Of a stretch of 39,090 bases of DNA, positions 6,429-35,718 are shown in pieces. The translations under genes were made by a program, and so were the position numbers. Source of the stretch: Methanoculleus sp. (GTDB taxonomy: Archaea > Halobacteriota > Methanomicrobia > Methanomicrobiales > Methanoculleaceae). The notes below the pieces were generated by a model that was not told where the DNA came from, did no database searches, and worked only from the letters and a program-made list of their open reading frames with translations. The first letter of the stretch is position 1, and each line of letters starts with the position of its first letter. The DNA is taken from assembly GCF_020696975.1 (NCBI RefSeq), contig NZ_JAJGBK010000030.1:1-39090 (forward strand), given 5' to 3'.

Positions 6429-7247
6429 TCAGTACCCCGTCGCGTAGTAGTAGCCGTCCTCTTCCCGGACGCGGACCGGGACGCGGAAGAGGGCGCCGAT
6501 GGCCTCATCGGTCAGGACCTCGGCCTTTCTGCCGTCCATCCGGACGGCACCGTCCCGCATCAGGATGACCCGCCCGATCTCCGGGATGATGTCGTGGAGG
6601 TTGTGGGTCACGAGGATGATGCCGGTGCCGGACTGTGCAATCTTCCTGATGGTATTTCTGAAAGTGTGGAGCGCGGCGAGGTCAAGGCTGTTTGTGGGCT
6701 CGTCGAGGACGAGGGTGCCCGGATCGTGGACGAGCGCCCGCCCGATCAGGAGCCTGCGGGCCTCGCCCGAGGAGATCTCCGTCATCGGGCGGTCGGCGAG
6801 GTGCGCGACGTCGAGGAACTCGAGGATATCGTCGGCCTTTTGCTCCATCGCGTCCGTCACCTCGTGGGAGAGGAAGAGCCCGATGCTTGAGAAGAACCCG
6901 GAGAGGACGACCTCGCGGCCCGATATCCTGCGGTTGAAGATCTGCTGGAGGTCCCCGGAGACAAGCCCTATGTGGGAGCGAAGGTCGAAGGCGTCCCAGG
7001 TCTCCCGCCCCCGGAACCGGAACGTGACGTCCGGGCCCGGCGAGGATGGATAGTACTCGCGGGTGATCGCCCGGATGAGCGACGACTTCCCGGCACCGTT
7101 CGGTCCGAGGATGGCGATATGCTCCCCTTCGCGGATCGTGATCGAGACCCGGTCGAGGAGTCTGTGGCCGTCCCGGACAACGCTGACGTTCTGGAACTCG
7201 ACGAGCGGCGGGGCGGATGGCCGAGCGCCGGCAGTGCTGTCAGTCAT
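6429..7247 (-). CDS. ABC transporter-type ATP-binding protein
   Basis: 272 residues. Walker A G48-PNGAGKSS-56, Q-loop region near Q101-Q102, signature SSGEA at 159-163, Walker B TLVLDE at 178-183 with catalytic E183, and switch His215 (VTHNLHD). All ATPase motifs are intact. The protein most resembles ModF-like or iron-siderophore-type ATPases that stand alone. No permease or binding protein is next to it, so either the membrane partner is elsewhere or the protein acts outside transport. The N-terminal extension of about 15 residues before the first strand is Ala/Pro-rich. A weak GCGGAGCGG lies upstream of the ATG. It shares direction with the DUF1673 operon but is separated from it by about 90 bp. 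Confidence 0.88.
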   Translation of the reverse strand: MTDSTAGARPSAPPLVEFQNVSVVRDGHRLLDRVSITIREGEHIAILGPNGAGKSSLIRAITREYYPSSPGPDVTFRFRGRETWDAFDLRSHIGLVSGDLQQIFNRRISGREVVLSGFFSSIGLFLSHEVTDAMEQKADDILEFLDVAHLADRPMTEISSGEARRLLIGRALVHDPGTLVLDEPTNSLDLAALHTFRNTIRKIAQSGTGIILVTHNLHDIIPEIGRVILMRDGAVRMDGRKAEVLTDEAIGALFRVPVRVREEDGYYYATGY

Positions 7248-7340: not shown

Positions 7341-8084
7341 TCATCGCGGGGAGCCGAGCAGCGCGGCAACCCTCTCCGGGTCGTCCGTGTAAATGTGGAG
7401 GAACCCGGCGGGTACCAGCCTCACTCTGACGTGGCCGGGATACCGCAGACTGACCAGGGCACGATAGAGCAACTCCAGCATGAACACCAGCCAGCTGACC
7501 GCCAGGAGAACCTGGAAGCCAAGATCGGGGTCGACGATCGGGCCGCCCGGATAACGCATCAATCCGTTCCCTATGGTGGCAAAGAATATCGCTGCAGTCA
7601 TGAGTATCAGGAGGAGCGCGGACGCCCAGCGGGGTATGGAGAGAATGGGTTGTTTCACCTCGACCGATCGGACCGTATCCTTTCCGAAGACAAGCGGCCC
7701 GGTATGCGATCTCTGGATGGTGACTGAGTTCCTGGAGAACTCGATCGCGGTCCTGTACGGATCGAAGTAGATGCGCCATGCGGCCCAAGCCAGAAGGGAA
7801 ACAGCCATGAAGGTAAAGATGAGCCCTGGCCACAGGGAGGGGATGAGGACGGATACCACGAAGAGGAAGAGGAAACCGAGGAAGCCGAGTGGCATCAGCA
7901 CAAAGAAGCGAGGACTGGTGTACTCCACGAACACGCCCTCTACCACCTCCCGGCTGCCGTCTGCCGCGGTCCCGAGCCCGACCACGCCGTCCGGCGCGGC
8001 GTACCGCCGCCGACCGGTGCCGGCAGCTGCCGCGTTCGGGCACCAACCGAGCTTCTTCCTGAGATATTCCATGAAGAACGTCAT
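7341..8084 (-). CDS. DUF1673-like membrane protein (third of three)
   Basis: 247 residues from the ATG at 8084, whose bases overlap the stop of the upstream paralogue as ATGA; a second in-frame Met lies four codons later. The frame stays open to 8822, but that part is only the antiphase of the neighbour. The N-terminal motif LGWCPNAAAAGTGRRRYAAP is shared with the next gene. About four hydrophobic segments follow, in two pairs (roughly residues 62-110 and 155-215), split by a strand-rich part (FSRNSVTIQRSHTG) that recalls bacterial PH-like domains. The tail is IYTDDPERVAALLGSPR. DUF1673 is a family of unknown function described in methanogens; the assignment is by motif recall. Confidence 0.8.
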   Translation of the reverse strand: MTFFMEYLRKKLGWCPNAAAAGTGRRRYAAPDGVVGLGTAADGSREVVEGVFVEYTSPRFFVLMPLGFLGFLFLFVVSVLIPSLWPGLIFTFMAVSLLAWAAWRIYFDPYRTAIEFSRNSVTIQRSHTGPLVFGKDTVRSVEVKQPILSIPRWASALLLILMTAAIFFATIGNGLMRYPGGPIVDPDLGFQVLLAVSWLVFMLELLYRALVSLRYPGHVRVRLVPAGFLHIYTDDPERVAALLGSPR

Positions 8085-8812
8085 CTGGCTACCCCCAGCA
8101 CTCGGGCTATCCGTTTGGGATCGTCCGTGTAGATCACAGCAATCCTCTTCTTCGTGGTCGTTATCACCAGGACCTGCAGGTAGTGGGTCCGCACGTAGGT
8201 GCGGTAGAAGAGCACCGGAAAGAAGATCGCGGCGGCAAGCCCGAAGATGAACCGCATGGAAGATGGATCTGAAAATCCAGCGTATATACTGCCGGCCGCC
8301 GATATGAAAAGCGCCGTGAACGCTGCCGTGAGAAGCCGGGGTGAGAGGGGAGGTCGGTTCTCCTTCACCTCCGCCTTCACGATGGCATCCTTTGGAATGA
8401 CGATAGGCGAAAAGAGCGGCCGCTGGATGACGACGGCGTCGCGAGCGACCTCGATGCAGGCTCTTCGTATGGCCCCGTATAACTCCAGGGCGGCGTAGCC
8501 CAGAACGATCGCCGGCAGGAACAGCCTCCCTGCAGGAGGGATAATGAATGTCGGAACCGTAACGAGGGCTGCCGGAGCCGTAACAAGGAGGATCCCGATG
8601 AGAGAGGCGCCGGCAAGCAGCAGCAGGAAGAGCCTCCCCGGGGTGCCGATTGGGCCGTAGTCCACCAGCGCACCCTCCACCACCTCCCGGCCGCCTCCTG
8701 TCGCCATACCGACCTCGCCCTCCGGCGCGGCATATCGCCTGCCGGTGCCGACCATTGCTGCGTTCGGGCACCAGCCCATCCATCTCCGTATCGTCTCGGA
8801 GAACTTCATCAT
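8081..8812 (-). CDS. DUF1673-like membrane protein (second of three)
   Basis: 243 residues. Its start (ATGATG) overlaps the stop of the preceding gene, and its stop overlaps the next start, each as ATGA, so translation is likely coupled. It begins MMKFSETIRRWMGWCPNA, has the same GTGRRYAAP block as the downstream paralogue, hydrophobic hairpins near residues 60-115 and 160-205, and the internal strand ARDAVVIQRPLFSP followed by IPKDAIVKAEVKE. The C-terminus is IYTDDPKRIARVLGVAR. Paired hydrophobic segments around a PH-like core suggest an inner-face membrane protein; function unknown. It arose with the 7341-8084 gene by tandem duplication. Confidence 0.8.
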   Translation of the reverse strand: MMKFSETIRRWMGWCPNAAMVGTGRRYAAPEGEVGMATGGGREVVEGALVDYGPIGTPGRLFLLLLAGASLIGILLVTAPAALVTVPTFIIPPAGRLFLPAIVLGYAALELYGAIRRACIEVARDAVVIQRPLFSPIVIPKDAIVKAEVKENRPPLSPRLLTAAFTALFISAAGSIYAGFSDPSSMRFIFGLAAAIFFPVLFYRTYVRTHYLQVLVITTTKKRIAVIYTDDPKRIARVLGVAR

Positions 8813-9417
8813 ACGCGTTCACCCTCTGTTGCCGTATCCACGGTATACACCGACCCCTTCTCCGCGATCATGATCGCCTTGTGCCGGCGCTCCCAGAGGA
8901 TCGTGAGGCCGTACCAGGTCCAGCAGATGAGACACATGCCCAGCATGAGCCCGAGAATCCGGTCGAACATCCCGCCCAGAACAAAATACGCCATAACGGC
9001 GGCGAGGAGAACGGAGGCCACCGGCAGACTCAGAGACCGGACGATGCGCTGTCTCCGGGTCATGTTGTCCCTGACGAACTCGCCGGCGGCAACCCGTGCA
9101 TACTGCTTCCGGTAACTGAGCAGGAAACCGAGGGCCGCTCCCACCCCAATGGCGAGGCCCGTCCATACGGCCGGGTACCCCGGAGGAGCATCCTCGACCA
9201 GGGTAAAGAGCGCCGCTGCCGCCGCCGAGAAGGCTATCGCCGTTATCAGCAACTGGTTATGGTAGCGCTTCCACCACCCGGGTTCGACCCGGAGGGGGCC
9301 ATCCTGCCCCCCCGCCGCCGCGGCCGTCGCCGGCCGCACCTTGAGATCCGTCCGCATCGACGCCTGCAGGGGGCACCAGCCCAGGTATGCCCGTATCGTC
9401 TCCATAAGAGGCATCAT
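8809..9417 (-). CDS. DUF1673-like membrane protein, divergent first copy
   Basis: 202 residues from the ATG at 9417, which overlaps the stop of the HTH regulator; the stop overlaps the next start. The longer open frame to 9969 is antiphase to the regulator and is not used. The start MMPLMETIRAYLGWCP keeps the GWCP motif of the two paralogues, but the GTGRRYAAP block is replaced by an Ala-rich linker (near residues 30-40). Four hydrophobic segments follow (two near residues 57-105, two near 135-175). The C-terminus VYTVDTATEGERV keeps only a trace of the TDDP tail. It is the most diverged member of the triplet and may have taken on a different role. Confidence 0.75.
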   Translation of the reverse strand: MMPLMETIRAYLGWCPLQASMRTDLKVRPATAAAAGGQDGPLRVEPGWWKRYHNQLLITAIAFSAAAAALFTLVEDAPPGYPAVWTGLAIGVGAALGFLLSYRKQYARVAAGEFVRDNMTRRQRIVRSLSLPVASVLLAAVMAYFVLGGMFDRILGLMLGMCLICWTWYGLTILWERRHKAIMIAEKGSVYTVDTATEGERV

Positions 9418-9860
9418 ATCATCTCCCGGAGTTTCGCAAAGAGTTCGTCGGCCAACCGTGTCGGATCGTCGGTCTTCGTGAGCACAATCCCCAGTTCGTC
9501 CGCGTAGCCCCAGAGGAGCTCGATGCACCGGGCGTACCGGGGGCATGTGCCGCAGTCGCCCTCGTGCTCGTACCAGACCTGCACCCCGTGGTCTGCCGAG
9601 ACGAAGACGATCGCAGCCGCATTGAAGGGGACGGAACGGCCGAAGAGGACGCCTTTTTCCGCGTTCAGGCGCTCGACCTCGATCTGGTTCGCCTGCGCCA
9701 TCTCGAGAAGCGTCTCTTCGACCTTGCGGTCCATGGCAAGCAGCGCCTTCGAGACCGCCTGGCGGGATATCTTGAAGCGATTCGCGATCTGGATGTTTAC
9801 AAGACCGCTCCGCCTGAGCTGCCAGAACGCGAACTGCCTCTCGTCCAGGGATAGGGGCAT
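9414..9860 (-). CDS. HTH transcriptional regulator with Cys motif
   Basis: 148 residues. Residues 5-45 form a helix-turn-helix (ERQFAFWQLRRSG, IANRFKISRQAVSKAL), followed by a helical linker (residues 46-68) and a small strand-rich sensor part with C103-x2-C106-x5-C112, a possible metal or redox site. The last 25 residues contain TKTDDPTRLADELF, which resembles the C-terminal motif of the membrane proteins encoded downstream. It is the first gene of a four-gene operon in which every junction overlaps as ATGA. A perfect inverted repeat lies between its TATA box and start codon (9863-9882), suggesting autoregulation. The family name is unknown to me; DNA binding is well supported. Confidence 0.8.
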   Translation of the reverse strand: MPLSLDERQFAFWQLRRSGLVNIQIANRFKISRQAVSKALLAMDRKVEETLLEMAQANQIEVERLNAEKGVLFGRSVPFNAAAIVFVSADHGVQVWYEHEGDCGTCPRYARCIELLWGYADELGIVLTKTDDPTRLADELFAKLREMI

Positions 9861-9862
9861 GC

Positions 9863-9882
9863 GTCAACATAGACGGGTTGAC
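9863..9882. promoter_or_regulatory. Operator-like inverted repeat at the HTH-DUF1673 operon start
   Basis: GTCAAC (9863-9868) and GTTGAC (9877-9882) form a perfect inverted repeat with an 8-bp spacer. It begins 3 bp upstream of the start codon at 9860 and abuts the TATA box, so a bound protein would cover the transcription start. The encoded HTH protein is the obvious candidate. Confidence 0.55.
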
Positions 9883-9891
9883 ATAATAAAC
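9883..9891 (-). promoter_or_regulatory. TATA box of the HTH-DUF1673 operon
   Basis: GTTTATTAT on the minus strand, centred 27 nt upstream of the ATG at 9860. This spacing predicts a leaderless mRNA. Confidence 0.6.
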
Positions 9892-10035
9892 AATTCGGTT
9901 TGTCCTCATCGAACTCAACCCTAAGCCTCTCCTCGTGCCGGAGGATACCTGCACCTCACCCGAACCCATCTTCGCCTGAGAAGAGACGTTGCATTGCTAT
10001 ACGACCGCACAAAACGCAAGCCTTAACTGCCCGGA

Positions 10036-10044
10036 GATATTTAG
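10036..10044 (+). promoter_or_regulatory. TATA-like box of the TetR gene
   Basis: GATATTTAG, followed by palindromes at 10048-10059 and 10061-10078 that would overlap the transcription start. The expected leader is about 30 nt and carries TGAGGA about 10 nt before the ATG. Confidence 0.45.
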
Positions 10045-10047
10045 AGT

Positions 10048-10078
10048 GAGTGGTCACTCTAGAGTGACCGGTCGCTCT
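10048..10078. promoter_or_regulatory. Double palindromic operator for a TetR-type repressor
   Basis: Two palindromes in tandem: GAGTGGTCACTC (10048-10059) and AGAGTGACCGGTCGCTCT (10061-10078, one mismatched pair). Both contain the half-site GAGTGACC or its complement. Their place between TATA box and start codon, directly upstream of a tetR gene, is the usual arrangement for autorepression by TetR proteins, which bind such 12-18 bp dyads. Confidence 0.65.
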
Positions 10079-10093
10079 GAGGAATGGATCCGT

Positions 10094-10672
10094 ATGACCG
10101 AGGAGAGGAACGAAAAGAAAGCAGCCATCGCCGGAGCAGCCGTCAGGCTCTTCACGGAGAGGGGGTTCCACGGCACCCCGACATCGCTCATCGCGCGCGA
10201 GGCCGGCGTCTCGAACGGGACGCTCTTCCATTACTTCCCAACGAAAGAGGAACTCATCAACTTCGCCTACTTCGAGGTTAAAAGCCGGATGACGGAGGAT
10301 ATCGGCAGGGGAGTCGACGGGGAACAGGCGAACAGGGAGAAGATGCGGAGATTATGGCGCAGCGCCGTTCTCTGGGGGGTCGACCACCCCGACGAATACA
10401 TGTTCGTCCAGCAGTTCTGCTCGTCCCCGTTCATCAGGAGACTGCCCCCCGAGGAGTTCCTGAAGGACGCCCCGGCCGTCTTCGAGGTTCTTACCGAAAC
10501 CCTCGGGAAGAGCTGCCTCGAGGGCATGGCGATCGAGGTCGCCTTCTCCGTCATATCCTCTCCGATCGACGCCGTCATCAGGTCGATCATCAACTCGGGC
10601 GGCAACCTTGACGCAGATCGGTTGATCGACGCTTCGTTCGAGATCATATGGAGGGGGTTGACGGGAGAATGA
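10094..10672 (+). CDS. TetR/AcrR family transcriptional regulator
   Basis: 192 residues from the ATG at 10094; an upstream in-frame ATG at 9989 would translate through the operator and is rejected. Residues 8-55 are the TetR HTH: AAVRLFTERGFHGTPTSLIA, then EAGVSNGTLFHYFPTKEELI, with the invariant YF-x-K-EEL block. The C-terminal ligand-binding half is unspecific. Its stop overlaps an ATG of the following aldo/keto reductase frame, and both are probably co-transcribed. By family, an effector ligand would release the protein from the palindromes at 10048-10078. The ligand cannot be read from the sequence; a substrate or product of the reductase is a reasonable guess. Confidence 0.92.
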   Translation: MTEERNEKKAAIAGAAVRLFTERGFHGTPTSLIAREAGVSNGTLFHYFPTKEELINFAYFEVKSRMTEDIGRGVDGEQANREKMRRLWRSAVLWGVDHPDEYMFVQQFCSSPFIRRLPPEEFLKDAPAVFEVLTETLGKSCLEGMAIEVAFSVISSPIDAVIRSIINSGGNLDADRLIDASFEIIWRGLTGE

Positions 10673-11959: not shown

Positions 11960-12736
11960 ATGGATACAGCACTGCGCGACGCCTACACGCGGCTTCACGA
12001 GAAGTACTTCCCGGGGACGGAACTCCCGATCGCTTTCGAGGTCGGGGGCGCGACCGACGGTGTGGAGAAGGCCCCCGCCCCGAAGGGCTGGAGGTGCTTC
12101 GTCTGCGACCTTACGAAGGTACGAAACGGCAAAAGCCTCGTCTTCGACGAAGAGTCGATCGGGTGCCGCGGGGGGAGGTTCTACCTCGGCTACGACGCCG
12201 AACGGTTCCCCGACTTCCGCTACTTCCTCTCCTACGGAAAGCCCGGTGAGATGGAGGGAGAGCGCTACAAGCAGACGCCGGAGATCGTCGACGAACTCGA
12301 CCGGGGAACCACAAGGATACCGACGAAGGGAAAGAGCATCGTCTTCAAGCGCTGGGACAACCTCACGGACGCCGACAATCCGGACGCTGTCGTCTTCTTC
12401 ACGCGGCCCGAGGTGCTCTCCGGCCTTTTTACGCTTGCAAACTTCGACCGGGCCGACCCCTACGGCGTCATAACTCCCTTCGGCGCCGGGTGCAGCTCGG
12501 TCTTTTATTTTCCCTGGCTTGAGCAGCAGAGCGAGAGCCCAAGAGCGGTCCTCGGAATGTTCGACCCCTCGGCACGGCCCTGCATCCCGACAGACGTCCT
12601 GACGATGGCCTTCCCCATGAAGAAGTTTGAGAACGTCATCGGCTTCATGGAGGAGAGTTTCCTCATCACGGACTCATGGGAGAAGGTGATGAAGAAGATC
12701 GAGCGGAGCGACAGACTGCATTCACCTAAAAAATGA
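11960..12736 (+). CDS. DUF169 family protein
   Basis: 258 residues. The block CFVCDLTKVRNGKSLVF followed by GCRGGRFYLGY (residues about 46-80) and the later segment ITPFGAGCSSVFYFPW (near 180) are typical of DUF169 proteins, which are widespread in methanogens and anaerobic bacteria and have no established activity. Conserved Cys residues near positions 46, 49, 69 and 183 may be functional. No signal peptide or membrane span. It has its own TATA box just after the aldo/keto reductase stop, so it is likely transcribed separately. The gene converges on the dienelactone hydrolase gene, with the 62-bp repeats between. Confidence 0.85.
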   Translation: MDTALRDAYTRLHEKYFPGTELPIAFEVGGATDGVEKAPAPKGWRCFVCDLTKVRNGKSLVFDEESIGCRGGRFYLGYDAERFPDFRYFLSYGKPGEMEGERYKQTPEIVDELDRGTTRIPTKGKSIVFKRWDNLTDADNPDAVVFFTRPEVLSGLFTLANFDRADPYGVITPFGAGCSSVFYFPWLEQQSESPRAVLGMFDPSARPCIPTDVLTMAFPMKKFENVIGFMEESFLITDSWEKVMKKIERSDRLHSPKK

Positions 12737-12764
12737 CCGGATGGGGGGGGATCAGCCGAGCGTT

Positions 12765-13012
12765 CAGTCGAACATGCTGCGCATGTTCTCCAACTCCTGC
12801 CGGGCACTTACGCGCCCGCCAGTCGCCAGTCGAAAACGCTCCGCGTTTTCTCCAACTCCTCTCAGGCACTTACGCGCCCGCCAGTCGCCAGTCGAAAACG
12901 CTCCGCGTTTTCTCCAACTCCTCTCAGGCACTTACGTGCCCGCCAGTCGCCAGTCGAAAACGCTCCGCGTTTTCTCCAACTCCTCTCAGGCACTTACGTG
13001 CCTGAGAGTCGT
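12765..13012. repeat. Four tandem copies of a 62-bp hairpin repeat
   Basis: Copies start at 12765, 12827, 12889 and 12951. Each holds a first hairpin of 8 bp with a 3-nt loop, then TCCAACTCC, then a second hairpin around TTAC. Copies 2-4 carry GAAAACGC-TCC-GCGTTTTC; copy 1 carries GAACATGC-TGC-GCATGTTC, changed on both arms so pairing is kept. The second hairpin is imperfect in copies 1 and 2, has 5 bp in copy 3, and in copy 4 has 11 perfect pairs (arms 12982-12992 and 12997-13007). The period of 62 is not a multiple of three, which argues against coding. The last copy contains the stop codon of the minus-strand hydrolase gene. Confidence 0.9.
12982..13007. terminator. 11-bp hairpin at the hydrolase 3' end
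   Basis: CTCTCAGGCAC and its exact complement enclose a TTAC loop. The minus-strand hydrolase stop codon (TAA, 12994-12996) lies in the loop and its last codons form one arm. Lying between two convergent genes, it could stop or stabilise either transcript. Confidence 0.45.
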
Positions 13013-13761
13013 TGCTTGAAAAAAACCACCATCTCCTGATAGGCGCTCTCTGCGACGGGCGTCTCCACCAGTTGCCCGTCCTCCCTGATCATGAACCCGT
13101 GCGGCTCGCCCTGGTAGACCTTGAGCTCGAAGTACTTCCCGGCCGCATCGAGATCGGTCGCGTACCGGTAGATATCGCCCACCGGGCTTGCCTCATCCGC
13201 CGTGCCGTGGATGATCAGCATCGGGTCGGTGATGTTCTCGACGAACTCTGCCGGGGGGGTCCCGTTCGCCTGCCCGCCGGAGTAGGGGAAGCCGTACCAG
13301 GCGACGCCCGCACTGAACTCCTCAATCTGCGGCAGGAAGAGCATCGTGTAGCGCCCGCCCGCGCAGAACCCCGTCAGGCCGATGCTGCTCTCATTCACCT
13401 CGGGCCGGGTCCCAAGATACGCGACCGTATCGCGGACCAGCCCCTCCATCACGGTGTCCTCCGGCGACTCCTCGAAAGTCTGCCACTCGGGGGCGATGAC
13501 GACGAACCCCTCCGTCGCCAGGCGGTCGACCATGACCTCGTAGCCGGGCTCGAGCCCGTTGAAGGAGTGGAGCAGCACCAAGGCCGGGGACGGCCCGTCG
13601 CCCTCGGGGGTCGTGATGTAGGCCGGATAACTCTGACCGCCGCTCTGGATGTTCACCGTCGTTCCGTTCCGCATCCCGGCAGTGCCCACGTCGCTGGCGC
13701 CGGCTGAGCCGACCAGGAGGAGCAGGGATACAACCGCAACAAGCAGGATGACGTTTCTCAT
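12994..13761 (-). CDS. Exported dienelactone hydrolase family protein
   Basis: 255 residues with a signal peptide (residues 1-22, hydrophobic run, cleavage near AGA-SDV). Alpha/beta hydrolase with nucleophile C133 in GFCAGG, D189 in HGTADEASP and H221 in GEPHGFM: the Cys-Asp-His triad typical of dienelactone hydrolases. Substrate unknown; the exported location makes an intracellular chlorocatechol role unlikely, and esters or lactones outside the membrane are more plausible. The last codons and stop sit inside the fourth copy of the 62-bp repeat, so the C-terminal Leu-Ser-Gly-Thr derives from repeat DNA or gave rise to it. Confidence 0.9.
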   Translation of the reverse strand: MRNVILLVAVVSLLLLVGSAGASDVGTAGMRNGTTVNIQSGGQSYPAYITTPEGDGPSPALVLLHSFNGLEPGYEVMVDRLATEGFVVIAPEWQTFEESPEDTVMEGLVRDTVAYLGTRPEVNESSIGLTGFCAGGRYTMLFLPQIEEFSAGVAWYGFPYSGGQANGTPPAEFVENITDPMLIIHGTADEASPVGDIYRYATDLDAAGKYFELKVYQGEPHGFMIREDGQLVETPVAESAYQEMVVFFKQRLSGT

Positions 13762-28566: not shown

Positions 28567-29748
28567 TTACTGCTCGACGAAACAGAACGGGTCCTCGGCA
28601 GCGTGGTCCCCGCCGGCGGCATACGCCCGCACCCGGCAGCCACCGCCGCAGAGGTCCCGGTAGCCGCACCGCCCGCACTTCCCCGAGAGGTCCCGTGGCT
28701 CGGCCCTGAACCGAGAGAGGACGGGGTTCTCCGCGTCCTGCCAGATGAGGGAGAACGGCCGTTCCCGGACGTTGCCGACGAGGAACTCTGGTGACCGGGC
28801 GAACTGGCAGGGGTAGACGTCTCCTTTCGGGTCGACGTTTGCCACCCGCTTGCCTGCGCTGCACCCCCCGTTCAGAGACCGGACGAGCGCTTCGGCCTCG
28901 CGGACGTCGGGAGACCCGTCCCGCTCCATGGCCCGGAGGAGGTGGACGCAGTCCTGCGGGGCATCGACGGTCAGGAACTCCATGAGACCGGGGTCGGCCT
29001 CCAACGCCCTCCGGTAGAGGAGGGTGAGCGCCTCGTCCACCTTCTCCGGCCCCACCTGGAGCCGGTCGTAGGCCTCGCCCCCCCTCCCGCTGGGGACAAG
29101 CCAGTAGAGGCAGAACCGGGAGGCACCGAGCGCCGCCGCGAGGTCGATGAGGGGATCGAGTTCCTCCGTGTTCTCCTCTGTCAGGGTGACCCGGAGGCCG
29201 GTCCGGATGCCTGCCTCCCGGCACCGGGAAAATCCCTCCACTGCCCGCTCAAACGCGCCCTCCGTCCCCCGAAACCCGTCGTGGGTCTCCGGCCGCGCGC
29301 CGTCGAGCGATATCCCGACGTATCCGATCCGTGAGTCCCGGATCATCCGGGCGGCGCTGGAGGTGATCAGGGTGCCGTTCGTGCTGAGCGCGGTCCGGAT
29401 CCCGCGGTCCGCCGCTGCCCGGGCGATCCGGGGCAGGTCGTCACGGAGGAGGGGTTCCCCGCCGGAAAAGAGAATGAGCGGGACGCCCATCCCGGCAAAA
29501 TCCTCGATGAGGGCGAGGGCCTCATCGGTCGTGAGCTCCTCGTCCGTCCTCGAGCCCGGCCCGGACCTGCTGTAGCAGTGGGCGCAGGCGAGGTTGCACC
29601 GGTCGGTGAGGTTCCAGAAGACAACCGGCCGGTACTCCTGCATGAACGCGAGGTACTTCCCCGGTACTTCTGTAAGCGGCCTGTTCTGGTGGCGGACGAC
29701 ATCGCTGACCGTCCCCCGTCCATGCATGCACTGTGTAATCCTGTTCAT
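28567..29748 (-). CDS. ahbC: 12,18-didecarboxysiroheme deacetylase (radical SAM)
   Basis: 393 residues. Its ATG (29748) overlaps the stop of ahbB as ATGA. The N-terminus (CMHGRGTVSDVVRH, then RPVVFWNLTDRCNLACAHCYS) matches AhbC/NirJ-type enzymes; C51, C55 and C58 bind the SAM-cleaving 4Fe-4S cluster, and FSGGEPLLRDDL is the SAM-binding GGEP motif. The C-terminal SPASM-like part has CSAGKRVANVDPKG and CGRCGYRDLCGGGCR. AhbC removes the two acetate side chains from didecarboxysiroheme to give Fe-coproporphyrin III in the archaeal and sulfate-reducer heme route. Operon context with siroheme decarboxylase genes supports the call over a generic SPASM enzyme. Confidence 0.85.
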   Translation of the reverse strand: MNRITQCMHGRGTVSDVVRHQNRPLTEVPGKYLAFMQEYRPVVFWNLTDRCNLACAHCYSRSGPGSRTDEELTTDEALALIEDFAGMGVPLILFSGGEPLLRDDLPRIARAAADRGIRTALSTNGTLITSSAARMIRDSRIGYVGISLDGARPETHDGFRGTEGAFERAVEGFSRCREAGIRTGLRVTLTEENTEELDPLIDLAAALGASRFCLYWLVPSGRGGEAYDRLQVGPEKVDEALTLLYRRALEADPGLMEFLTVDAPQDCVHLLRAMERDGSPDVREAEALVRSLNGGCSAGKRVANVDPKGDVYPCQFARSPEFLVGNVRERPFSLIWQDAENPVLSRFRAEPRDLSGKCGRCGYRDLCGGGCRVRAYAAGGDHAAEDPFCFVEQ

Positions 29749-30233
29749 TCCAGATCGCCTCCATTCTCGCCGATACGCACGTTCGGCACCCTCTTGTACT
29801 CTTCGGTGCTGAAGAGGACGATATACTCCCTGCACCCGACCGCCCGTGCAATCTCCTCGACCGCAGAGCGCACCTCCTCCCGGCTCCTGCCGTGGTGAAC
29901 GGTGTAGAGGGTGTACTCCCATCTCTCCGGCACCGGCCGGCGCAGGTAGCAGTGGGAGAACCCCGGCAAGGAGGCGAACCGGGAGAGCGCCCCCTCGTCC
30001 CACCCGGCGGGCGGGCGCCAGGCGACGAGAGCGTTTGCCGTGATTCCGACGCTCCGCTGGTTGATCCGGGCCCGGATCTTCCGGATCACCCCCTCGCCAC
30101 GGAGGCGTTGCGCCCGGCGGAGCACCTCCGCCTCCGATATGCCGAGCCTCTTCCCGATCACGCCAAACGGTTCGCTGACCGCGGGAATCCCCTTCTCAAG
30201 TTCTTTGAGAAGGCGGACGTCAATCGGGTCCAT
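29745..30233 (-). CDS. ahbB: Siroheme decarboxylase subunit AhbB
   Basis: 162 residues from ATG 30233, preceded by GGGGGAGG; the start lies within the last codons of the upstream gene (14-bp overlap). An N-terminal AsnC/Lrp-like winged helix (IGKRLGISEAEVLRRAQRL) is followed by an RAM-like domain with HCYLRRPVPERWEYTLYTVH, HGRSREEV and FSTEEYKRVP, which are typical of the AhbB subunit. With AhbA it removes two carboxylates from siroheme. Despite the HTH-like fold these proteins are enzymes. The AhbA partner is fused to the preceding AhbD protein. Confidence 0.85.
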   Translation of the reverse strand: MDPIDVRLLKELEKGIPAVSEPFGVIGKRLGISEAEVLRRAQRLRGEGVIRKIRARINQRSVGITANALVAWRPPAGWDEGALSRFASLPGFSHCYLRRPVPERWEYTLYTVHHGRSREEVRSAVEEIARAVGCREYIVLFSTEEYKRVPNVRIGENGGDLE

Positions 30234-31767
30234 GAGGCGCCTCCCCCGACAGGCGGAAACGGACATCTATCTTATAGGCCCGGACGGTGGGAAGGTCGAG
30301 CGCGTCCTCCTCCGGGATGCCGGTCCGCGAGAGGATGTCCGCGAGCACCGCGGAGAGCCGTTCCTCTGTCGGGGCGGCCAGGGTGAACCAGAGGGCGTAG
30401 GGGTGGTCCCGCCGGAAATTATGCGAGACCTCCGGGTAGCCGCTGACGATCCCTGCCACCTCGTGCACCCGGTCCTCCGGGACGCGGAGCGCGACCAGGG
30501 TCGCGGCGGCAAGCCCGAACCTTCGGGAGTCAAAGACCGGCGAGACGCTGCGAAGGACGCCCGCCGCCGCGAGTCTCCGCATCCTCGCAAGAAGGTCGTC
30601 TTCCGCGATCCCGAGATCGGCCGCGATCCCGGTCCACGGGCGGGGCACCAGGGGGAGGTCGTCCTGGAGGGCATCCAGGATCGCGAGGTCGGTCTGATCG
30701 ATGCCCCCGGGCTCGTAGGGGCACCACGGGTCCTCGCGCGAGACCTCCCCGCAGGGGTTGTCGGGCCGCATGAGGCCGTCGCACCACCGGGCCGGGACGG
30801 TCCCAGCCCCGCGGTAGGCCCGCGCCCGGCACCCCCCGCAGACCCCCTTATAGCCGCAACGGCCGCACTTTCCGGTGAGCCGGTCCGGGTCGCGGAGAGC
30901 GTCAAAGAGCTCCGAATGGTTCCAGATCTCGGAGAACGTGGTCGTCCGGAGGTTGCCCGCGCTCACCGGCAGGTAGGGGCAGGGCGTCACCTCCCCGGTC
31001 GCGTATATCCGGCAGTAACTGATCCCGGCCATGCAGCCCCGGCTCCATCCGGGGTTCTCGATCCCGGCCTCGTCGGCGATCCGGCGGAACTGGGGTGCGC
31101 ATGTCGAGCGGATCCGAAGACCGCTCTCCCGGTACCGGAGAAGGATATCCCGGATCAGGTCCTCGTACTCGCGGGGGCTGCCCTGCCCGGGTTCGTGTCC
31201 CCTCCCGGTCTCCACCGGGAAGAAGACCTGGTAGTCGCGCACGCCGAGGGATTCGCCCAGTCCAAGCACCGCCTCCACGTCGGCGAGGAAGGGGCGCATG
31301 ACCGTCATGTTGATCCGGACGGCGAGCCCCGCGTCACGGCAGCGCCCGATCGCGCGAACCGCCCGCTCCCATACACCGGAAACCCCCCGGAACGCGTCGT
31401 GGGTTTCCGGATCCGCCGAATCAAGGCTGACCGCCACCGATCGTACCCCCGCCGCGGCGAGCCGCTTTGCCGTCGCTCCATCGAGGAGGAACCCGCTCGT
31501 CCCCATCGCCATGACGAGTCCCCGCTCCGTCCCGTACCGGGCGACCTCAAAGATATCCTCCCGCATCAGGGGTTCTCCCCCGGAGAGGACGACGACGGGC
31601 TTTCCGGTGCTCGCAATCTGGTCGATGACCGAGAATGCTTCCTCTGTCGAGAGCACCCCGTCTGCTTCGTGCTCACCTGCATCCGCGTAGCAGTGAGCGC
31701 ACTTCAGCGGACAGCGGAGGGTGACGTTCCACGAGATCAGGGCGGGGCATCCCGGTGTGCCGGTCAA
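30220..31767 (-). CDS. ahbD-ahbA: Fusion of heme synthase AhbD with siroheme decarboxylase subunit AhbA
   Basis: 515 residues. Residues 1-355 are radical SAM: C19-x3-C23-x2-C26 in RCPLKCAHC, LSGGEPLMREDIFEVARYG, and a C-terminal Cys-rich SPASM-like part (CMAGISYCRIYATG, CGRCGYKGVCGGCRARAY), fitting AhbD, which decarboxylates two propionates of Fe-coproporphyrin III to yield heme. Residues 365-510 are an AsnC/Lrp-like domain with RPWTGIAADLGIAEDDLL and HNFRRDHPYALWFTL, fitting AhbA. So first and last steps of the pathway sit in one polypeptide. No ATG is available and the start is TTG at 31767, so the exact N-terminus is uncertain. CTTTAACG at 31861-31868 could be its TATA box (minus strand). 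Confidence 0.8.
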   Translation of the reverse strand: MTGTPGCPALISWNVTLRCPLKCAHCYADAGEHEADGVLSTEEAFSVIDQIASTGKPVVVLSGGEPLMREDIFEVARYGTERGLVMAMGTSGFLLDGATAKRLAAAGVRSVAVSLDSADPETHDAFRGVSGVWERAVRAIGRCRDAGLAVRINMTVMRPFLADVEAVLGLGESLGVRDYQVFFPVETGRGHEPGQGSPREYEDLIRDILLRYRESGLRIRSTCAPQFRRIADEAGIENPGWSRGCMAGISYCRIYATGEVTPCPYLPVSAGNLRTTTFSEIWNHSELFDALRDPDRLTGKCGRCGYKGVCGGCRARAYRGAGTVPARWCDGLMRPDNPCGEVSREDPWCPYEPGGIDQTDLAILDALQDDLPLVPRPWTGIAADLGIAEDDLLARMRRLAAAGVLRSVSPVFDSRRFGLAAATLVALRVPEDRVHEVAGIVSGYPEVSHNFRRDHPYALWFTLAAPTEERLSAVLADILSRTGIPEEDALDLPTVRAYKIDVRFRLSGEAPHGPD

Positions 31768-34245: not shown

Positions 34246-35718
34246 TTGGAGTTGTGTATTCTGACGCAGCAAAATCTTCCGATCAAGTTAGTGGTCGGTA
34301 TCATCGCCCTGATCATCGTTATAGCAGGGATTCTGATTATATTCTCCCCGGGAGGGGAGAATCCTGTTCCGAAAGAGACCACGCAGGACGAGTTGAAGGC
34401 TCTTGCAGTGGAGATCGCGGGCCAGATCGACGGCGATGCCTTCGCCGCCCTCAAGCCCGGTGATGAGACCACACCGGAGTTCATCGCCATCCGCGACCAG
34501 CTCGCCGCCTTCCGGGACGAAAACCCCGGGATCCTCTACGTCTACACGATGCGCAAGGTCGGGAACGCCACCGAGTACGTCGTGGACGCTGACTACGGCA
34601 GCGGCGACGCACCCAGGATAGGCGAGGTCTACTATCCCACGGACGAAGACACCAGGTTCCTCGCCGGGTTCAAGGAGCCCTCGGCTGAGGACGAGTATTA
34701 CACCGAAGAGTGGGGCAATGTCGTTGCCACCATCATTTCCGGGTATGCCCCCATCAAGGACGCGAGCGGGGCCATCGTCGGGCTCGTCGGTGTCGACATG
34801 GGGAGCACGGAGGTGATCGCGGGTGCAGATTCACTGCCGAAGGCGCCCACGGAGGAGGAACTGAAGGCCCTCGCCGTGGAGGTTGCGGGCACAATCGACG
34901 GTGGCGCTCTCGCCGCGCTCAAGCCGGGTGACGAGGCCACCCCGGAGTTCACCGCCATCCGCGACCAGCTCGCGGCCTTCCGGGATGAAAACCCCGGAGT
35001 GATCTACGTCTACACGATGCGCAAGGTCGGGAATGCCACCGAGTACATCGTCGACGCGGACTACGGGACCGATGACGGAGTCGAGATAGGCTACACCTAC
35101 CAGCCCACGGAGTATGACACCCTGTTCCTCGCCGGGTTCGAGGAGCCCTCGGCAGAGCCCTATTACATCGGAGAGTGGGGCGACGTCGTCTACATGGCTA
35201 CCTCCGGGTACGCTCCGGTCAAGGACGCAAGCGGGGCCGTCGTCGGAATGGTGTGTGTCGACGTCGGGGGCGCGATCACCGAGGATATGCTGAAAGACCT
35301 CGCAGTTGAGATTGCAGGCAAGATCGACGGCGATGCCCTCGCCGCGCTCAAGCCCGGCGACGAGGCCACACCGGCGTTCACCGCCATCCGCGACCAGCTT
35401 GCCGCCTTCCGGGACGCAAACCCCGAGGTCCTCTACGTCTACACGATGCGCAATGTCAACGATACCGTCGAGTACATCGTTGATGCGGACTACAGGCCCG
35501 GTGAAGAACCCGCGATAGGCAGCCTCTACCAGCCCACGGACGATGACTCCGCGCTGCTTGCCGGGTTCACCGGACCCTCCGCGGAGAGCGAACTCGCCAC
35601 CGAGGAGTGGGAGAACACCACCGCCGCCATCATCTCCGGGTATGCTCCCGTGAAGGACTCGACCGGCGCCATCGTCGGGCTCGTGGGCGTCGATATGGGG
35701 AGCACGGTTGCCCACTAA
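34246..35718 (+). CDS. Membrane-anchored protein with three tandem Cache/PDC-like sensor repeats
   Basis: 490 residues; the start is TTG at 34246 or 34252. One N-terminal hydrophobic segment (residues 14-34, LVVGIIALIIVIAGILIIF) anchors it, with the rest outside. Three repeats follow at about residues 50-204, 206-348 and 349-490. Each has LAVEIAGxIDGDAxAALKPG, IRDQLAAFRDENPG-LYVYTMR, VDADYG and SGYAP-KDASGA-VG-V-VDMG. This is the extracellular sensor fold of many methyl-accepting and kinase receptors (PDC/Cache type), but here no HAMP, kinase, MCP or cyclase domain is attached. Function unknown; ligand binding or a periplasm-like adaptor role is possible. Confidence 0.82.
   Translation: MELCILTQQNLPIKLVVGIIALIIVIAGILIIFSPGGENPVPKETTQDELKALAVEIAGQIDGDAFAALKPGDETTPEFIAIRDQLAAFRDENPGILYVYTMRKVGNATEYVVDADYGSGDAPRIGEVYYPTDEDTRFLAGFKEPSAEDEYYTEEWGNVVATIISGYAPIKDASGAIVGLVGVDMGSTEVIAGADSLPKAPTEEELKALAVEVAGTIDGGALAALKPGDEATPEFTAIRDQLAAFRDENPGVIYVYTMRKVGNATEYIVDADYGTDDGVEIGYTYQPTEYDTLFLAGFEEPSAEPYYIGEWGDVVYMATSGYAPVKDASGAVVGMVCVDVGGAITEDMLKDLAVEIAGKIDGDALAALKPGDEATPAFTAIRDQLAAFRDANPEVLYVYTMRNVNDTVEYIVDADYRPGEEPAIGSLYQPTDDDSALLAGFTGPSAESELATEEWENTTAAIISGYAPVKDSTGAIVGLVGVDMGSTVAH
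34393..35715 (+). repeat. Three coding repeats of about 430-465 bp
   Basis: Copies at about 34393-34857, 34861-35289 and 35290-35715. The block from the ALKPG codons to the VDADYG codons is nearly identical in DNA between copies 1 and 2, including silent positions, and slightly less so in copy 3. This points to recent duplication or gene conversion. Confidence 0.8.

Follow-up and report, generated by a model that had tools for sequence, protein, structure and literature searches.

Why should an archaeal helix-turn-helix (HTH) regulator share an operon with three membrane proteins, and by what part might their products be connected? The question is raised by a compact locus in the window, the whole 39,090-nucleotide stretch of Methanoculleus sp. 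DNA analysed here, in which a regulator gene is followed by three DUF1673-like genes. This operon has the look of a hitherto undescribed module for immunity or for membrane-to-gene signalling, and its parts, from the promoter onwards, are as follows.

9883-9890, minus strand: TATA-like box, TTTATTAT, centred about 27 nt 5' of the start codon, in a promoter inferred to be leaderless
9863-9882, no strand: candidate operator dyad GTCAAC-N8-GTTGAC, GTCAACCCGTCTATGTTGAC, unique in the genome and at a fixed position before 99 regulators
9414-9860, minus strand: regulator (HTH) gene, 148 aa, with an HTH with a long third helix (1-57) and an alpha/beta domain (60-147) containing H-x3-C-x2-C-x5-C
9525-9566, minus strand: H99-x3-C103-x2-C106-x5-C112 of the regulator, a candidate metal or Fe-S site
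9438-9473, minus strand: TDDPTRLADELF of the regulator, which begins its last helix; family form DPTxxAxEL, from the alignment and the secondary structure of the model
8809-9417, minus strand: membrane protein 1 (gene 2), 202 aa, DUF1673 (Pfam, 49.2 bits), with the N-terminal GWCP tag
9358-9417, minus strand: N-terminal tag of membrane protein 1, MMPLMETIRAYLGWCPLQAS, from the tag logo
8081-8812, minus strand: membrane protein 2 (gene 3), 243 aa, DUF1673 (Pfam, 30.9 bits), tagged
8753-8812, minus strand: N-terminal tag of membrane protein 2, MMKFSETIRRWMGWCPNAAM, from the tag logo
8093-8131, minus strand: C-terminal motif of membrane protein 2, YTDDPKRIARVLG
7341-8084, minus strand: membrane protein 3 (gene 4), 247 aa, DUF1673-like, tagged, with a predicted PH-like domain split by two transmembrane (TM) hairpins
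8025-8084, minus strand: N-terminal tag of membrane protein 3, MTFFMEYLRKKLGWCPNAAA, from the tag logo
7353-7391, minus strand: C-terminal motif of membrane protein 3, YTDDPERVAALLG

The four-gene arrangement given in the original prediction, an HTH gene plus three DUF1673-like genes, is upheld by the translations, by the Pfam scores and by the 4-nt ATGA overlap at each of the three junctions between adjacent genes. Genes 2 and 3 score above the DUF1673 (PF07895) cut-off of 30.4 bits and gene 4 falls just below it at 27.4, while all 47 members of the alignment of the gene 4 protein match DUF1673 at E<=0.1; in the home genome, DUF1673 matches are limited to these three genes. The GWCP string said to mark the N-termini occupies residues 13-16 in all three membrane proteins.

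The surroundings of the operon hold several further features. An ABC ATPase gene (ModF-like, 6429-7247) lies about 100 bp 3' of the operon in many Methanoculleus loci, and was not seen directly behind the operons of other genera. On the other side, a divergent TetR-type gene (9989-10672) probably starts at about 10094, and just 5' of this point stands a perfect 18-bp palindrome, GGTCACTCTAGAGTGACC (10052-10069), which is probably the operator of that TetR-type regulator itself. Farther away, near-identical tandem DNA repeats at 12733-13019 have open frames on one strand, and a 490-aa protein (34246-35718) consists of three repeats alike in sequence (LAVEIAGxIDGDALAALKPGDE), apparently a sensor domain present three times. 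Two radical-SAM genes accompany AsnC-like decarboxylase-type segments at 28567-31767, one apparently fused (30220-31767), and these genes, judged by sequence alone, resemble those of alternative haem synthesis (AhbA-D).

The clearest sign of regulation lies at the promoter. The ATG of the regulator is at 9860, and the interval from the TATA box to this codon is occupied by a perfect dyad, as had been claimed. Its degenerate form, GTMAACN8GTTKAC, occurs once in the 2.29-Mb home genome, at the operon promoter, and most genomes of the genus likewise have a single occurrence, at the regulator, the few second sites being mostly asymmetric. Conservation upstream of orthologues, which the original prediction had made a test of the idea, was borne out: each of the 99 distinct full-length regulators has its best dyad 2-3 bp 5' of the start codon; at least six of the eight outer dyad pairs are matched before 95 of the 99, against about 6% of shuffled sequences. 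Uniqueness in the genome and conservation before 99 regulators rule out a chance origin of the dyad.

An AT box is centred 26-27 nt 5' of the start codon in 88 of the 99 regulators, and no Shine-Dalgarno-like site was found upstream of any of them. In archaea, a TATA box so spaced means that the transcript begins at or near the ATG. Taken together, the distance and the absent Shine-Dalgarno-like site suggest that the operon mRNA is probably leaderless, which would place the dyad at about -22 to -3 from the inferred transcription start. A protein sitting there would impede assembly of the initiation complex, so that autorepression is the simplest reading, and that the regulator controls its own operon through the dyad is, in our judgement, very probable. 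Repression, including binding of the dyad, is what we infer from the position of the dyad, its conservation and its co-variation with the HTH.

The AlphaFold2 model of the regulator (pLDDT 88.7, pTM 0.83) places helices at residues 7-17, 22-29 and 33-57, four strands within 60-97 and further helices at 109-123 and 133-147, giving the order sigma70-region-4-like HTH, long helix, alpha/beta domain. In the structural comparison, which effectively covers residues 1-93, EnfR (8hno) comes first with Z 7.8 over 61 residues, a score shared by LuxR-type HTH domains; sigma region 4 is also among the matches, all of which have Z below 8. Against true Tfx proteins, the regulator profile reaches 60% in hhalign over columns 5-98. 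The Tfx family model TIGR00721 gives 16.8 bits against a cut-off of 60.25, and a canonical Tfx gene stands elsewhere in the home genome (G000:C11:31336-31731, 120.7 bits), for which reasons an ordinary Tfx was rejected; the ArsR family gives no match. The protein is best called divergent Tfx-like; as modelled, it appears to resemble the Tfx/EnfR "eighth note" regulators (PMC10570040) in the N-terminal sigma70-region-4-like HTH, the long third helix and the small alpha/beta domain, and it differs from them in its score under the Tfx cut-off, its His-Cys3 loop and the separate true Tfx elsewhere in the genome. EnfR is a dimeric repressor, with an inverted repeat centred at -21 from the start codon of its target (PMC10570040).

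The His-Cys3 loop, which the original prediction had not mentioned, is nearly invariant among the 99 distinct homologues, with C103, C106 and C112 present in all and H99 in 97. Its H-x3-C-x2-C-x5-C spacing equals that of the His-Cys3 [4Fe-4S] site of NuoG, and sub-threshold Pfam matches to NuoG and Fe-hydrogenase Fe-S motifs fall on this stretch; the NuoG-type domain model PF10588 scores 12.6 bits against a cut-off of 27. Zinc is an equally possible ligand of the site.

Of 393 genomes spread over the phylum, 72 contain the regulator, as do 61 of 150 relatives, and it is absent from several Methanomicrobiales genomes of at least 98% completeness. Sixty named genome contigs carry it, from Methanoculleus, Methanoregula, Methanosarcina, Methanolobus, Methanococcoides, Methanoperedens, ANME-2 and others. 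In these 60 loci, we counted as tagged every ORF with G[WL]C[PR] near its N-terminus and at least one TM segment predicted by a simple hydropathy count; tags beyond DUF1673 were counted in regulator loci. This gave 169 tagged membrane ORFs in 53 loci, one to seven per locus and all on the strand of the regulator, 117 of which have a start codon followed by A, as in an overlapping NTGA. Three of the other seven loci end with their contig, one has an N gap, in two the tag is variant or broken in frame, and L102 has none. In 16 Methanosarcinales-type genomes, DUF1673 matches adjoin the regulator, bar two weak exceptions. With nearly all DUF1673 matches of these genomes beside the regulator and tagged ORFs behind it, the link is mutual and old. 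The proposed linkage of an HTH gene to DUF1673 thus held in nearly every testable locus and, together with the conserved dyad, it agrees with the predicted single, apparently autoregulated module. A decayed copy of the regulator was also seen (L185:600-984), with a decayed operator (GTCGCC..GTTGAC) and an altered tag (GRCP), all three degrading together.

The targets have the N-terminal GWCP tag in common and almost nothing else. Tagged proteins range from 88 to 601 aa and from one to nine TM segments; in an alignment of 150 of them, no column is invariant except those of the tag residues G and C, and the consensus of the tag is E-x-I-[RK]-[RK]-x-[LM]-GWCP. SdpI and DUF1648 are each matched by nine of the 150, locus L110 being an example (63 and 61 bits), and among long tagged proteins Pfam gives few names, namely DUF6159, SdpI and one weak AglB-core match. 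No SdpI domain was found by Pfam in the three membrane genes of the window, and the Methanoculleus tagged proteins of 253-255 aa were aligned separately from the SdpI group. For the gene 4 protein, the model (pLDDT 72.7) shows the tag as a short helix (2-11), followed by a low-confidence linker and a PH-like fold broken by two TM hairpins. The predicted fold has the seven-stranded barrel and capping C-terminal helix of the class, the structural matches listed are PH, PTB or PH-like domains (best Z 11.2, rmsd 2.4 over 83 residues), and homologues weakly match bPH_5/6/11. A PH-like domain had been anticipated, and the model supports one in membrane protein 3.

The original prediction had placed the connection between regulator and membrane proteins at the other end, in related C-terminal tails through which they would interact. 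The strings are present as described and alike by eye, and hhalign, comparing the membrane motif with the regulator, selects the same 22 columns and only these; homology found no support in the comparison, which gave 2.5% probability. The structural contexts differ as well, YTDDPxRxAxxLG forming the last strand and C-helix of the PH-like fold in the gene 4 model, and TDDP of the regulator lying in a loop ahead of its last helix, where it is retained in species whose membrane proteins do not have the motif. Besides, most targets are without it, the motif being found in about 31-35 of 169, in one target lineage. A common C-terminal tail as the unifying feature was rejected on these numbers, and interaction through such tails is extremely improbable; any link between regulator and membrane proteins more likely runs through the N-terminal tag.

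A second regulator clade with altered operator and tag, also absent from the original prediction, bears on both of these elements. Fourteen of the 99 regulators form a monophyletic clade B (support 0.999), the other 85 being termed clade A. In clade A, the recognition helix reads ISRQAVSxAL, the operator GTCAAC..GTTGAC and residue 108 is R, K or H, with 225 WC-type tags against 2 GLC-type strings. In clade B, the helix reads ITRQGVSQAL, the operator GTAAAT..ATTTAC, with both half-sites altered, and residue 108 is E; its 29 tags are GLC-type, mostly GLCRK (the GLC[RP]K variant), and GWCP is not among them. Positions 32, 35 and 38 in the HTH, 108 in the Cys loop, and 50, 61, 84, 115, 116, 141 and 144 separate the clades almost fully, and both sets stand side by side in single genomes (L100, L105, L116, L149, L155-L157). 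That operator and HTH changed together speaks for the dyad being where the regulator binds. The change of the tag together with that of Cys-loop residue 108, each side gaining the opposite charge, suggests contact; being a single evolutionary event among linked genes, it does not prove it, and the co-variation may have come from one duplication of a linked operon followed by drift, without contact. It is a tentative idea, which we hold to be less likely than not, that the tag is a portable docking peptide, any membrane receptor bearing which would report to the one repressor of its operon, with at least two orthogonal pairs (GWCP/R108/GTCAAC and GLCRK/E108/GTAAAT) working next to each other in archaeal genomes free of crosstalk.

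The reading that we prefer joins these elements into one circuit. The Tfx/EnfR-like regulator, probably a dimer, would bind the dyad between the TATA box and the leaderless start and repress its own operon, which would yield otherwise unlike membrane proteins bearing one tag, an amphipathic segment ending in GWCP; in this operon they belong to DUF1673, and for at least one a split PH-like fold is predicted, whereas elsewhere they are SdpI-type, DUF6159-type and other proteins. The membrane proteins would respond to a redox change, to damage of the membrane, or to a toxin or antimicrobial peptide; the tag would then dock the regulator through or near the His-Cys3 loop, and the regulator would leave the DNA, so that more protective membrane protein is made. 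We infer the docking on the tag, the membrane-borne signal and the protective role. As a whole, a Tfx-like autorepressor released by tagged membrane proteins in the way that SdpR is released by SdpI has in our view an even chance of being right; release through the tag itself falls a little short of that, and a role in immunity or envelope stress is plausible but somewhat doubtful.

The closest precedent is in Bacillus subtilis, where SdpI confers immunity and also acts as the receptor bringing SdpR, an autorepressor, to the membrane (PMC1626106). In both systems, as we read the archaeal one, an autorepressor is encoded together with one or more polytopic membrane proteins, and some tagged archaeal proteins match SdpI or DUF1648, as counted above. 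However, SdpR belongs to the ArsR family whereas the archaeal regulator is Tfx-like, and the archaeal arrays hold several unlike membrane proteins with a common N-terminal tag, for which sequestration and a toxin would follow by analogy. For leaderless bacteriocins, too, membrane proteins with PH domains are reported to provide immunity and transport (PMC11580447); they resemble the gene 4 model in being membrane-integrated with a PH-like fold (PMC11580447, PMC8657885), but the archaeal operon has no recognised bacteriocin gene and its predicted PH fold is split by two TM hairpins. The SdpI-type members and the PH-domain immunity proteins are leads that point the same way. An anti-phage system was set aside, as neither the four proteins of the operon nor the SdpI-type protein had a PADLOC match.

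Two other accounts have to be weighed against this circuit. The regulator itself may be the sensor, its His-Cys3 site holding an Fe-S cluster or a metal and setting repression or derepression by redox state or metal supply, with the tag put to some other use (assembly, membrane anchoring, a shared cofactor). The conservation of the four residues, the NuoG-type spacing, the weak Pfam matches there and the strictly anaerobic hosts are all consistent with such sensing, which would, however, explain neither why each regulator type has its own tag type nor the charge reversal at residue 108 within the Cys loop. We consider it unlikely, and it is compatible with the preferred circuit rather than exclusive of it.

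That the regulator serves a housekeeping membrane operon for lipid or envelope maintenance, as an activator or in plain homeostatic autorepression, and receives no signal from the membrane proteins, appears improbable to us. In favour of this account, what has direct support is just the conserved dyad at the promoter of the regulator, and the PH-like proteins, as modelled, could bind lipids; yet an operator between the TATA box and a leaderless start favours repression over activation, and housekeeping is at odds with the patchy presence of the regulator, missing even from nearly complete Methanomicrobiales genomes, with the varying number of tagged genes and with the strong divergence of the targets.

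The membrane family itself has been noted before. DUF1673, or arCOG06827, the "MGWCP motif" of which was noted in 2014, has been listed as a membrane-protein expansion in Methanosarcina (PMC4158269) and as a large supercluster (PMC4390880); the downstream genes of our operon belong to this family, and the passages retrieved on it mention no linked regulator, operator, PH fold, SdpI-type members or GLCRK variant. A text search covering mainly the main texts of openly available papers returned no functional study of DUF1673, MGWCP or archaeal SdpI immunity, and no account of the variant tag, the operator or the regulator.

DUF1673 has been archaeal "dark matter", listed for more than ten years without a function, and a dedicated, sharply conserved regulator at its own promoter, a PH-like fold and SdpI-type members make it a testable system. 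If it is true that the tag recruits the repressor, many different membrane proteins would be wired in modular fashion to one promoter, and no relay of this kind for membrane stress or immunity might have been described before in methanogens or methane-oxidising archaea.
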